From: Mesorhizobium sp. L-2-11
GTDB lineage: Bacteria > Pseudomonadota > Alphaproteobacteria > Rhizobiales > Rhizobiaceae
Assembly (NCBI RefSeq): GCF_016756595.1
Contig: NZ_AP023257.1
Span: 124,001 to 188,000, forward strand
Reading direction: 5' to 3'
Length of the DNA stretch: 64,000 nt
Made by a program: the position numbers and the translations under genes. Below are positions 2,718 to 59,547 of the stretch, piece after piece. The notes below the pieces were generated by a model that saw only the letters and a program-made list of their open reading frames with translations, searched no databases and was not told the origin of the DNA. The number at the start of each line of letters is the position of its first letter. Position 1 is the stretch's first letter.

Positions 2718-3533
2718 TCATTTGCCCGAACCGGCGATCTGGTCGCCGTCGCGGGTCAGGTAATAGGCGACGAGGATGGGCAGCAGCGTCAGCAGCACGA
2801 CGACCATGGCCACGACGTTGGTGACCGGGCGCTGGCGCGGACGGATCAGCTCTTCCAGCATCCAGATCGGCAGCGTCTGCTGCTGGCCGGCGGTGAAGGT
2901 GGTGACGATGACCTCGTCGAACGACAGCGCGAAAGCGAGCATGCCGCCGGCAAGCAGCGCGGTGGCGATGTTGGGCAGCACGACATGGCGAAACGTCTGG
3001 AAGCCGTCGGCGCCGAGGTCCATCGACGCCTCGATCATCGAGCCGGAGGTGCGGCGAAAGCGGGCGACGGCGTTGTTGTAGACGACGACGACGCAGAAGG
3101 TGGCGTGGCCGAGCACGATCGTCCAGAACGAGAACGGAATCTCGGCCAGCGAAAAGGCCGAACGCAGCGCGATGCCGGTGATGATGCCGGGCAGCGCGAT
3201 CGGCAGGATGACCAGCAGCGAGATGGTTTCGCGGCCAAAGAACCGGGTTCGCGAAACGGCGGCCGCGCAGAGCGTGCCGAGGACCAGGGCGACGAGTGTT
3301 GAGATAGCGGCGACGCGGACCGACAGCGACAGCGCTTGCCACACGTCCGGGCGGTTCCAGGTGACGGCGAACCATTGCGTGGTCAGCCCCGGCGGCGGCC
3401 AGACGAAGCTCCTTTCCTCGGTCGTAAAGGCATAGATGAAGATCAGGAAGATCGGCAGATGCAGGAACAGCAGGCCGCCAGCGGCGGCGATCTTCAGGCC
3501 GAGAGGAGCGGACGGTGAACCATCAGAGCGCAT
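2718..3533 (-). CDS. Polyamine-type ABC transporter permease (PotC/PotI/YdcV-like)
   Basis: This is the second membrane subunit of the importer encoded at 2.7-7.1 kb. The 271-residue product has about six hydrophobic segments. It carries the cytoplasmic EAA loop as [20 protein letters not shown], which docks on the ATPase. The ATG at 3533 overlaps the end of the first permease gene by 11 bases, so the two are probably translationally coupled. Length and the paired arrangement fit the PotC/PotI branch rather than sugar permeases. The substrate is inferred from the neighbouring aminobutyraldehyde dehydrogenase and is probably putrescine, spermidine or a related amine. Confidence 0.9.
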
Positions 3534-4488
3534 CGAAGGCCCCCATGCGCTTGGCGCCCCAGAGGTAGAAACCCATGATGACGATCGGCACCACGGTGAA
3601 GGCGGCGGCGAGCGGGATGTTGCCGGCGGTGCCCTGCTGCGAATAGACGGCCTGGCCGATGAACAGCCGCGAGGTGCCAATGATCTGCGGGATGATGTAG
3701 TCGCCGAGCGTCAGCGAGAAGGTGAAGATCGAGCCGGCGACGATGCCCGGCAGCGCCAGCGGGAACAGCACGTTGCGGAAGGTCTGGCCGGGCGAGGCGC
3801 CGAGATCGGACGAGGCCTCGACCAGATTGCCCGGCACGCGCTCGAGCGCCGCCTGCACCGGCAGGATCATGAACGGCAGCCAGACGTAGACGAAGACGAT
3901 GAAGGTGCCGGTGGACGATACCGAGAGCGAGTTGCCGCCGACGACCGGCAGTGACAGCCAGCCATCGAGCAGCCATAGCAGATGCAGCTTGGCGAGCAGC
4001 CAGGTGAGAATGCCTTCCTTGGCGAGAATGAGCTTCCAGGCGTAGATCTTGACCAGATAGCTCGACCACAGCGGCAGCATCACGCCGAGATAGAACAGCG
4101 CCTTCCAGCGACCGCGCGCATAGCGCGCCGCGTAATAGGCGATGGGAAAGGCGATGATCGCCGAGGCGAACGTGACCAGGGCCGCCATCGTCACCGTGCG
4201 CAGGATGATGTCGAGATTGGCGGCCTGCAGCAGGTCGCCATAGGTCTTCAACGTGAACTGCCGGTTGATGAGGCCGGAGAATTCGTCGATCGAGAAAAAA
4301 CTCTGCAGGAGCAGCGCGAACAGCGAGCCGACATAGACGATGCCGAGCCACAGCACCGGCGGCAGCAGCATCAACAGCAGCAGCAGTTTTGGCTTGCGCC
4401 AGAACAGATCGGAGAGGGCGCCAAGCATGCCTCCGGTGCCGGGGAGCACGGCTGGGGCGGGATTGGAGTCGAGTGAGGCGAGTGTCAT
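3523..4488 (-). CDS. Polyamine-type ABC transporter permease (PotB/PotH/YdcU-like)
   Basis: This is the first membrane subunit of the importer. The 321-residue product starts with a short cytoplasmic tail, then a strong transmembrane segment ([20 protein letters not shown]). An EAA loop ([20 protein letters not shown]) precedes the last segments. The ATG at 4488 ([12 protein letters not shown]) is used because the open frame further upstream runs through the palindromic repeat at 4539-4694 and has no conserved content. The ribosome binding site is weak. The repeat separates this gene from the ATPase gene and could form an mRNA hairpin inside the operon. Confidence 0.9.
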
Positions 4489-5799: not shown

Positions 5800-5916
5800 T
5801 ACCTCCCCCTTGTGGGGAGGTCGCGGCGAAGCCGCGGGTGGGGTCATTTGGCAGGAACTGCCGAGTACCTCCCACCCCGACGCTGCGCGTCGACCCTCCC
5901 CACAAGGGGGAGGGTA
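5800..5916. repeat. Palindromic repeat (family C) between ABC genes
   Basis: The arms ACCTCCCCCTTGTGGGGAGG (5801-5820) and the CCTCCCCACAAGGGGGAGG stretch (about 5895-5913) can pair with each other, and each arm is itself a small palindrome. The inner bases contain GCCGCGGGTGGGGTC and CCCACCCCGACG. A close relative is found inside the hrpB coding region at 57902-58085, sharing the end GGGAGGGTAAGG. It lies between the binding-protein gene and the ATPase gene. Confidence 0.75.
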
Positions 5917-56937: not shown

Positions 56938-59547
56938 CTAGCTCCCCCGCGGTTTGGCGCGGCTGGTGGCGGTGGCGAGAAGCGGGTTCTCCGGCCAGAC
57001 ATGCCGGGGATAGCGACCACGCATCTCGGCCCGCACATCGGCCCAGGAGCCGCGCCAGAAACCGGGCAGGTCACGCGTCGTCTGGATCGGCCGGTGCGCC
57101 GGCGACAATAGCTCGAGCGTCAGCGGCACGCTGCCGTTGGCGATTGCCGGATGCCGGTCGAGACCGAACAGCTCCTGGACGCGGATCGCCAGCACCGGCC
57201 ATTCACCGTCATAGCGGATCGGCACCCGGCTGCCGGACGGAGCGTCGAAATGGGTCGGCGCCAGCGCCTCGATCCGGCGCTGCAGATCGTGCGGCACCAA
57301 TGCCATCAGGCCCGTCGAAAGCACGCCCGGATCGATCGCGGCAAAGGACGCCGCGCCGGAAAGGAAGGGCAGCAGCCAGTCGTCGAGGCGGTCGATGAGC
57401 GCCGCGTCGGAAACATCTGGCCAGGGCACGCCAAGACCGCGATACAGCCAGCCGAGCCGTTGGCGCAGCGTTTCCGCCTCTTTGCCCCATGGCAACAGCG
57501 ACAGCCCGTGTTGGCGCAAGGCGTCGAGGATGGCGCGATCGGCGGCGGCGCCGGCCGGCGCCGGCAGCATGCGTTCGGACAGGGTGATGGCGCCGAGGCG
57601 AACGGTTTCACGCACGCGCACCGCGCGCCGGTCGCGGTCGAAACTGGTTTCGCGGTTTGTCTCGATTTTTTGCGCAAGCGAAGCGCGAATGTCGGCCTCG
57701 TCTATCGCCGCCGCTGCGGTAATGCGGGCGTTCTGCGCCTTGCCCTGCAGATCGGCGACGACGAGCCAGGTTTGGCCCGCCAACGGGTCGGCGGCGTCGA
57801 GTATGGCGCCCGAACCGTTGGCCAGCACGAAACGGCCGCGCTCGCCGCGCGCCTTGGCGACGCGGTCCGGCCAGGCATGAATGAGGAGAGCGCCGGCGGC
57901 GCTACCCTCCCCCTTGAGGGGGTCCGAAGGACGGGCGAGACCCGTGGCTCGCCCCGGCACGTCCATCCGCGAAGCGGAGCGGGGTGGGGTCATGTCGGGC
58001 ACGCCATCGGCGACCCCACCCCGTCTCCCTCGCTTCGCTGCGCTCGGCTCGCTCGCCGACCCTCCCCTCGAGGGGGAGGGTAAGGCCAGCCGTTCGGCGA
58101 GTTGCCGCGCGGCGGTGGCGCGCGGCGATCTTTCGGATCGGAACCGCATCAGCCGCCGTTCGAGGTCGGCGCCTTCGCCGCCCAGGCCACGCTCGGTGAG
58201 CAGCACGGCAAGCATGGCCGCCTCGAACGCCTGGCCGGTGCTTGCCGCCTCGGCGACCATGTGAGCCAGCCGTACCGGCAGTGCCAGCCAGCGCATCGCA
58301 GCACCCGATTGCGTCAGGCGCCCTGCCTCGTCAATGGCGTCGAGCGCACGAAGCAGCGCCCTTGCCTCACTGAGTGCCGGGGCCGGCGGCGGGTCGAGAA
58401 AGGAGAGGCTCGACGGGTCGGCGACACCGAAGGCGGCGCAATCGAGCAGAAGTCCGGAAAGGTCAGCCTCGAGGATTTCCGGCGGCGTGAAGGCGGGAAG
58501 TGCCGCAGTCTGCTCGGCCCGCCACAGCCGGACGGCGACGCCCGGCTGCGTGCGGCCAGCGCGGCCGGCGCGCTGGTCGGCGGAGGCTTTGCTGACCCGC
58601 ACCGTCTCCAGCCGCGTCAGGCCGCTGGCCGGCTCGTAGCGCGGCAGGCGCGACAAGCCGGAATCGATGACGACGCGCACGCCGTCGATGGTAATCGAGG
58701 TCTCGGCGATCGAGGTCGCCAGCACCACCTTGCGGCGGCCGGACGGCGCCGGCTTGATGGCGGCGTCCTGCGCCTTGTTATCGAGCATGCCATAGAGCGG
58801 CACGATGTCGGTGTCGGCGCTGACGCGGCCTTGCAGCCGCTCGGCAGTGCGTTCGATCTCGCGTTGGCCGGGCAGGAAGGCGAGCACGCTGCCGCTCTCC
58901 TCGGCAAGGGCCGCGCGGATCGCCTTGGCCATGGCGTCCTCGATGGCGATGCCGGCCGGCCGCTCGTCGTAGCGGATGTCGACAGGAAAGGCGCGGCCCT
59001 CGCTCTCGACCACGGGGGCGCTGGAAAGCAGCCGCGCGACGCGCGCGCCGTCGAGCGTCGCCGACATGACCAGCAATCGCAGATCGGGCCTCAGCGCACC
59101 TTGCACATCGAGCGCCAGCGCCAGACCAAAATCGCCGTCGAGCGAGCGCTCGTGGAACTCGTCGAAGAAGACCGCCGAGACATCGTGCAACTCCGGATCG
59201 TCGAGGATCATCCGCGACAGCACGCCTTCGGTGACGACGAGGATCCTGGTCCTCGCAGAAGTGCGGTTCTCCATCCGCATGGCATAGCCGACCGTTTCGC
59301 CGGGCTGCTCGCCGAGCAGTTCAGCCATGCGGCGGGCGGCAGCGCGGGCAGCGAGCCGGCGCGGCTCGAGCACAATAATCTTCCCCTTGCCGAGCCATGC
59401 TGCATCGAGCAACGCCAGCGGCACCAGCGTCGTCTTGCCGGCGCCGGGCGGCGCCACCAGCACGGCACTGTTGCCATGGCCGAGCGCTTCAGCGAGCGCC
59501 GGCAGCACGGCGGAGACCGGAAGCTCTGGCAAGGATTTTCTGGTCAT
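56938..59547 (-). CDS. hrpB: ATP-dependent helicase HrpB with an in-frame repeat insertion
   Basis: HrpB is a DEAH-type helicase of poorly known function. The 869-residue protein has Walker A VAPPGAGKTTLVPLAL near residue 45, the DEAH-like box FFDEFHERSL, SAT in LLVMSATLDG, the motif VI-type DQRAGRAGRTQPGVAVRL, and an HrpB C-terminal domain. Between about residues 488 and 548 the sequence turns low-complexity (ALPSPSRGGSASEPSAAKRG and onward); this is a palindromic repeat of family C inserted in frame. Without it the length would match the usual 810-820. ATG 59547 is preferred. Confidence 0.92.
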   Translation of the reverse strand: MTRKSLPELPVSAVLPALAEALGHGNSAVLVAPPGAGKTTLVPLALLDAAWLGKGKIIVLEPRRLAARAAARRMAELLGEQPGETVGYAMRMENRTSARTRILVVTEGVLSRMILDDPELHDVSAVFFDEFHERSLDGDFGLALALDVQGALRPDLRLLVMSATLDGARVARLLSSAPVVESEGRAFPVDIRYDERPAGIAIEDAMAKAIRAALAEESGSVLAFLPGQREIERTAERLQGRVSADTDIVPLYGMLDNKAQDAAIKPAPSGRRKVVLATSIAETSITIDGVRVVIDSGLSRLPRYEPASGLTRLETVRVSKASADQRAGRAGRTQPGVAVRLWRAEQTAALPAFTPPEILEADLSGLLLDCAAFGVADPSSLSFLDPPPAPALSEARALLRALDAIDEAGRLTQSGAAMRWLALPVRLAHMVAEAASTGQAFEAAMLAVLLTERGLGGEGADLERRLMRFRSERSPRATAARQLAERLALPSPSRGGSASEPSAAKRGRRGGVADGVPDMTPPRSASRMDVPGRATGLARPSDPLKGEGSAAGALLIHAWPDRVAKARGERGRFVLANGSGAILDAADPLAGQTWLVVADLQGKAQNARITAAAAIDEADIRASLAQKIETNRETSFDRDRRAVRVRETVRLGAITLSERMLPAPAGAAADRAILDALRQHGLSLLPWGKEAETLRQRLGWLYRGLGVPWPDVSDAALIDRLDDWLLPFLSGAASFAAIDPGVLSTGLMALVPHDLQRRIEALAPTHFDAPSGSRVPIRYDGEWPVLAIRVQELFGLDRHPAIANGSVPLTLELLSPAHRPIQTTRDLPGFWRGSWADVRAEMRGRYPRHVWPENPLLATATSRAKPRGS
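57902..58085. repeat. Family C palindromic repeat inserted inside hrpB
   Basis: Arms CTACCCTCCCCCTTGAGGGG (57902-57921) and CCTCCCCTCGAGGGGGAGGG (58061-58080) are near-complementary. They end in the same GGGAGGGTAAGG as the copy at 5800-5916. Inside are GCGGGGTGGGGTC- and GACCCCACCCCG-type segments. It lies within the hrpB open frame, in the region between the helicase core and the C-terminal domain. It does not shift the frame or add a stop. Confidence 0.85.

Follow-up and report, generated by a model that had tools for sequence, protein, structure and literature searches.

The hrpB gene and its palindromic element

The window, a 64,000-nt stretch of the genome of Mesorhizobium sp. L-2-11, contains hrpB, which encodes an ATP-dependent helicase. 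This HrpB is a DEAH-type helicase; a regulator of type III secretion that is also called HrpB is a different protein. Within the gene, and in its reading frame, lies a palindromic repeat element (Table 1). The original prediction had placed the element there on the basis of the letters alone, and its position was confirmed. The outer arms are 24 nt long and 88% complementary. The minus-strand transcript of positions 57895–58092 folds at −132.3 kcal/mol (z −5.5), and 0 of 200 shuffled sequences folded as well. Residues 507–565 read open, in agreement with the claim that no stop interrupts the element, and the open, conserved frame suggests that it is translated as part of HrpB.

A related copy lies in an intergenic region of the window. 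Its arms are 19 nt long and 100% complementary, and it ends, like the hrpB element, in GGGGGAGGGTAAGG. The proposed kinship between the hrpB element and an intergenic copy (noted at 5800–5916) is thus borne out by both arm type and shared end. A search of the window against Rfam at gathering level returned 0 matches.

Table 1 Features of the hrpB locus and related element copies
Feature	Position	Strand	Details
hrpB, ATP-dependent helicase, 886 aa	56938..59598	minus	ORF; Pfam DEAD, Helicase_C, HrpB_C
Palindromic repeat element in hrpB	57902..58085		57906–58080 between outer arm ends; HrpB residues 507–565 (59)
Outer inverted-repeat arm, one side	57898..57921
Outer inverted-repeat arm, opposite side	58064..58087		bears end GGGAGGGTAAGG
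Inner stem-loop of hrpB element	57980..58023		12-nt perfect arms CGGGGTGGGGTC/GACCCCACCCCG at 57980–57991/58012–58023, 100% complementary
Intergenic copy of same arm family	5802..5914		arms 5802–5820/5895–5913
Three element copies in FtsY, N-terminal region	L231:2914–3026, 3292–3404, 3616–3728		own genome

The repeat family and its in-frame copies in other genes

The arms of the hrpB element are shared with the 5802–5914 copy and with about 20 further places in the genome. A scan of the 7.42-Mb genome for the exact arm pattern CCTCCCC-N3-7-GGGGAGG gave 32 matches, and for the reversed control pattern 0. In the window and 20 other genome stretches we read 23 element clusters, some of them single hairpins. 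The layout of an element is two inverted CCTCCCC..GGGGAGG hairpins flanking variable inner stems. The motif RGCGC/GCGCY lies no more than 15 nt from 18 of 36 element ends in the own genome, versus 301 of 2160 control windows; it could reflect a target preference or the true end of the element.

The hrpB element is not a single oddity, since a search of the genome for further in-gene copies found several that are in frame. Among the ORFs tested over the clusters, those recognised by Pfam that hold the element in frame are hrpB, ftsY (three), uvrB, uvrD, glyQ, a Suv3-like helicase and a fused 5-oxoprolinase. Together they hold 9 elements in 8 of the 23 clusters. The xdhC gene of the same genome has an in-frame element too, and relatives have in-frame elements in pdhC (two in the single gene read) and cobN. 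Both glyQ and ftsY are usually essential. The uvrD insert separates motifs II and III of the helicase. Mapped onto solved structures, it falls between residues 237 and 242 of 3lfu, and the glyQ insert falls between residues 236 and 240 of 7eiv. An AlphaFold model of GlyQ was poor (mean pLDDT 54.7), and we draw no conclusion from it. A terminal extension of the protein houses the element in the case of uvrB and of the Suv3-like gene. The window element has four of its six frames free of stops, and each of eight other in-gene copies has 4 or 5 of 6.

Two minor observations concern these genes. The oxoprolinase (L236) has a second repeat-like insert peptide of another type, ISPPVGEMSAKPTEGG..GISPTRGEI, which separates its Hydantoinase A part from its Hydantoinase B part. 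A GntR/UTRA-type gene of the own genome (L239:2169–3119) extends 57 nt into an element, which seemingly supplies the end of the gene.

Presence, absence and orientation among hrpB orthologues

To see how the segment is distributed, we searched 119 genomes of the genus, own included, all 119 of which gave an hrpB match. The gene's DNA was taken from 110 of them (G006, G013, G014, G018, G023, G053, G066, G086 and G094 were left out), and two more were set aside because the contig ends at the linker (L053, L056). Of the 108 readable linkers, 65 are empty, 36 hold a full element, 4 hold remnants and 3 hold something else. An empty linker is 51–60 nt long, mostly 54 nt, and resembles ERLARQAGGAKNSEAASA, which is unrelated to the element. 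The segment is therefore missing from most of the relatives compared, with an unrelated short linker in its place.

The nearest named hrpB relative among the matches listed is that of M. prunaredense, at 95% identity. When the 132 other hrpB genes in our tree are ranked by nearness to the window's gene, the first ten all contain an element, in both orientations and at several lengths, whereas numbers eleven (M. mediterraneum, L050) and twelve are empty. A segment conserved in all close homologues, named with the original prediction as the mark of an ordinary linker, is thus not what the relatives have. Outside the genus, the element is present in two Aminobacter hrpB genes (L200, L202), while in a third (L208) the corresponding position is taken by an unrelated palindrome (fold z −7.4).

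Measured between conserved borders, the stretch is 54 nt long in relatives without the element and 201 nt long in the window's hrpB. In comparisons such as that of an empty allele (L052) with a filled one (L043), the filled allele has lost about 30 nt of the former linker: the element replaces the old linker and is not added to it. The claim that it adds about 60 residues consequently stands for the 59 residues encoded but not for the net gain, which is about 49. In 42 of 45 full alleles the distance from the left junction to the first arm is 15, 24, 27 or 33 nt, each of which is divisible by three.

To follow these states through time, we built trees from 133 distinct hrpB genes with the linker excluded (L221, which has an N in its linker, was dropped). 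Changes between empty and full numbered 24 on a quick tree, 25 on a careful one and 19 on the quick tree with branches below 95 support collapsed; between empty and anything else they numbered 27, 28 and 21, respectively. Orientation changed 8–9 times among the 31 alleles in which it is clear. Two alleles inside the window's own clade, L149 and L024, carry the element inverted, and L018 matches the reverse complement of L024 at 93% over 183 nt. Close species thus encode unrelated peptides with the same DNA.

Reading frame and predicted structure

The frame is kept in 48 of 51 non-empty hrpB linkers, counting full elements, remnants and other palindromes. In the remaining three (L051, L072 and L116, one of them from the single-contig genome G090) it is shifted at the linker, so that hrpB looks dispensable or decaying there unless these are sequence errors. 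The earlier description of the helicase as essential-looking is not sustained by these relatives. In L126 hrpB is broken upstream of the linker, which itself measures 171 nt. In the other genes the frame is kept at 30 of 30 glyQ loci and 29 of 30 uvrD loci of the genus, at all 29 uvrD loci from other genera, and at 29 of 29 xdhC loci.

The best solved relative of the window's HrpB is E. coli HrpB (6eud). In an alignment to it, query residues 480–563 lie between matched stretches, at chain residues 457 and 487. An AlphaFold model of HrpB from a 34-row alignment was moderate (mean pLDDT 67.7, pTM 0.47). It places residues 508–565, with pLDDT below 50, between helices 492–505 and 568–575. Other stretches also fall below 50, for example 316–382 in the helicase core, so the low value at 508–565 is support for disorder and not proof. 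The 59-residue linker derived from the element is probably floppy.

Recurrent sites hold different repeat types

At the hrpB, uvrD, glyQ and xdhC sites, different species hold different repeat types. Among 30 glyQ loci of the genus, 5 are filled and 25 short, and all five filled genes have lost ASNDNLPM. From a list of 120 glyQ homologues, sorted by similarity to a filled query and hence biased towards filled genes, 112 could be cut; by eye, 31 of these have an insert peptide, and at least three peptide types occur. The 29 xdhC loci divide into 16 long ones, in three peptide types, and 13 short ones. None of the 30 uvrD loci of the genus is empty; among 29 loci from other genera, 4 are short (63–81 nt).

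We folded eight uvrD inserts. Six gave z scores of −3.5 to −8.0, and two of a single type gave −1.1 (L291) and −1.7 (L285). This type, AEGRKPDRAS, was accordingly left out of the palindromes, its two folded copies doing no better than chance. The AEGRKPDRAS... insert (L291, L285, L381) is frequent in the uvrD loop, is repeat-like, and is found in another genus too. Two further uvrD sequences look like assembly faults: the insert of L304 contains an unknown base, and that of L305 (G001) has several hundred bases of poly-C followed by poly-G, a likely assembly artefact at a palindrome.

The intergenic site shows the same variety. In 20 genomes, the site of the 5802–5914 copy holds this family in 7 (own included), a different palindrome pair in 12 and an unclassed sequence in 1. 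In G019, a close relative, the other pair sits between flanks that are both 98.7% identical. At this site in G020 (L465), a putative insertion sequence of about 1.4 kb lies in the right arm of the palindrome.

Tentatively, such sites may be fixed chromosomal "docking" sites, in the loops of hrpB, uvrD, glyQ and xdhC as well as between genes, which persist while unrelated palindrome families swap through them like cassettes. The odds appear to us somewhat against this. Turnover of the kind was seen at both window loci examined, 5802–5914 and hrpB. If the reading is right, protein loops would be long-term reservoirs of repeat DNA, and the loop peptides would be rewritten by inversion and family swap.

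Origin and spread of the hrpB element

What kind of segment is this? In our judgment it is probably a non-autonomous palindromic repeat that lies in frame in the inter-domain linker of HrpB, selfish or neutral, and tolerated in the loop. Two properties would let such an element survive within genes: being GC-rich, it has several reading frames that contain no stop, and it sits in loops that accept extra residues. Copies that shift the frame would be lost, or kept only in genes that are decaying. The suggestion that the protein tolerates the element as a linker is supported overall by the unstructured prediction and by the empty, filled and inverted states among relatives. At the protein level the element would then be selfish or neutral. 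Nonsynonymous difference in the insert is below synonymous in several pairs (L019/L023, 5 versus 16), which would count against neutrality, though not in others (L024/L149, 8 versus 8; L034/L163, 5 versus 2).

The inter-domain position, the predicted lack of structure and the widely varying lengths would also suit an ordinary, fast-evolving, low-complexity linker without a mobile history. We reject that explanation, to which we give almost no credence, because the segment's strongly palindromic DNA belongs to a repeat family with intergenic and other-gene copies elsewhere in the genome, and because it occurs in both orientations. Recruitment of the inserted peptide, or of an mRNA or DNA hairpin, for a function such as an interaction segment, translation pausing or helicase regulation would fit the presence of an element in 10 of 10 nearest relatives. 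It would also fit the lower nonsynonymous than synonymous difference in several pairs, the slow synonymous change of some inserts, and the recurrence of helicase, repair and translation genes as hosts both here and among those described in PMC3733652. Inverted copies, however, encode unrelated peptides at this position, the linker of 65 of 108 relatives is unrelated to the element, and other repeat types occupy the hrpB, uvrD, glyQ and xdhC sites, so that recruitment seems to us unlikely.

How the tolerated repeat came to so many species is a separate matter. With low confidence, we propose that the hrpB copies trace to a few founding insertions, that they reached other species by very short-tract exchange at the locus and not by fresh jumps in each genome, and that the element sometimes inverts in place. 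Against this stands the possibility of independent fresh insertions, in which transposition into a hot hrpB site would have occurred in many species, with the short target linker lost each time. The roughly 25 state changes on the tree, the two orientations, the several left-junction types and the small gain in flank identity that goes along with shared inserts all favour fresh insertions, as would the RGCGC/GCGCY motif near element ends if it is a target preference. On the other side, the same left junction appears in distant species (L043, L044 and L161, L042), the filled alleles read lack an identical piece of the linker, and no mobiliser was found in the genome. Moreover, the hrpB inserts of scattered species resemble one another above any other copy scored. 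With one hrpB insert as query against the 119 genomes and 7 candidates scored per genome, the best seven matches were all hrpB (87–100%), from scattered branches, and the best non-hrpB copy reached 86%; several other filled hrpB genes ranked below non-hrpB copies. On balance we hold fresh insertions to be a serious contender, if a somewhat improbable one.

Rates of change bear on the same choice. Insert difference tracks flank difference weakly (Spearman 0.30; 816 of 820 pairs of 41 alleles), with a median insert difference of 0.10 at 10–20% flank third-position difference and 0.15 at 35–50%, although the palindrome itself limits the apparent insert difference. Synonymous difference is alike in insert and flank for L019/L023 (16% vs 15%) and L022/L028 (33% vs 35%), and lower in the insert for L021/L147 (12 vs 19), L029/L030 (7 vs 15), L024/L149 (8 vs 17), L034/L038 (8 vs 26) and L200/L202 (15 vs 36); L018/L020 was excluded as misaligned, with offset indels. 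The extreme is L034/L163, with 2% in the insert versus 38% in the flank. Given the slower insert in five other pairs, this gap may partly be slow insert evolution, and the slower inserts of close pairs put more weight on fresh insertions.

Exchange of long tracts was rejected, as there was no marked rise in flank identity in 13 pairs, nor in 3634 pairs that included empty controls. In the latter, which are of like divergence and not independent of one another, identity of the nearest 60 nt on the two flanks was 0.788 and 0.854 for filled–filled pairs (425), 0.772 and 0.845 for filled–empty pairs (1824), and 0.759 and 0.825 for empty–empty pairs (1385). Flanks beside shared inserts are thus only slightly more alike than controls, which would count against the exchange step. 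Three accounts of the spread fit these data: recombination over very short tracts, a lineage specific to the locus that inserts anew, or an old insert that changes slowly; we weakly favour the first.

The sole Y1 transposase gene of the genome (PF01797, L128) is flanked by another repeat (by eye), and the genome-wide pattern search placed no exact arm near it. For these reasons mobilisation by this gene in the manner of a RAYT has no support. The gene (L128:1180–2830) lies between repeats containing GGTGACAGTGCAC, and a second partial copy of its end is found nearby (by eye).

Relation to known repeats

Palindromes within coding sequence are best known from the intracellular Rickettsia and from scattered intragenic REPs. 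The best reading of the hrpB element is that it is of this known kind, a selfish or neutral palindrome tolerated in a loop; that it is real, and a strong rhizobial instance of the kind, is well supported. Rickettsia palindromic elements (RPEs) are described as 105–146-bp palindromes that occur both between genes and in frame within unrelated conserved genes (PMC2229807, PMC10969869). The Mesorhizobium element is likewise found in both settings, in several unrelated conserved genes, and is absent from relatives' orthologues (65/108 empty for hrpB, 25/30 short for glyQ, 13/29 short for xdhC). It differs in that the host is a large-genome Mesorhizobium, that a single protein site may be empty, filled, inverted or of another type among congeners, and that the old linker is replaced. 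The likeness to RPEs is drawn from their description.

Intragenic REPs of the GTAG/CGTC kind are reported from many species, many of them in DNA repair genes, among these uvrA/uvrB, and in UvrD/Rep, RNA helicase and tRNA synthetase genes, and the recB genes of two Xanthomonas have a REP at about the same site (PMC3733652). The main text of that paper does not mention Mesorhizobium. REPs are elsewhere said seldom to overlap coding regions (PMC12306157). Like these intragenic REPs, the element is a palindrome within ORFs, but it is longer and bipartite, and no RAYT/Y1 transposase gene flanked by it was found in the genome. Nor do the hrpB copies end in a constant GTAG/CGTC tetranucleotide: GGGAGGG is followed by TAG, TAA, TGG, CAG and others, and CCCTCCC is preceded by TTA, TCA, AAA and others.

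Rhizobial genomes contain dozens of palindromic repeats such as RIME and Sm/ABC, which the element resembles as a palindromic repeat; by description, the basis of this comparison, they differ in being intergenic (PMC2573895). Rhizobial repeats are treated as intergenic or extragenic in these sources (PMC2573895, PMC2873474). Our search by title and abstract, with most subscription papers outside it, found no paper on coding palindromes in Mesorhizobium. Less usual here, and without a description in the literature examined, are the recurrent sites, the swapping of types, the inversion and the replacement of the linker.

With more than 100 species genomes, the genus allows one to count, for several genes and at a single site in each, how often a repeat was gained, lost, inverted or replaced. 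The movement of small repeats for which no transposase is known thereby becomes open to test, as does the amount of foreign loop sequence that core enzymes tolerate. It is also a warning that protein segments of this sort are repeat DNA and not conserved linkers.

With MITEs the element shares small size, terminal inverted repeats and the lack of a gene of its own; neither a parent insertion sequence nor a duplicated target has come to light. Empty and filled sites differ by replacement, which would hide any target-site duplication. No gene-sized stretch between two arms stands out in the genome-wide list of exact arms, where arms cluster beyond the scale of a single element at ftsY alone. The last two of the three ftsY copies lie 324 nt apart and their flanks are repeated, forming a coding tandem built on the palindrome.
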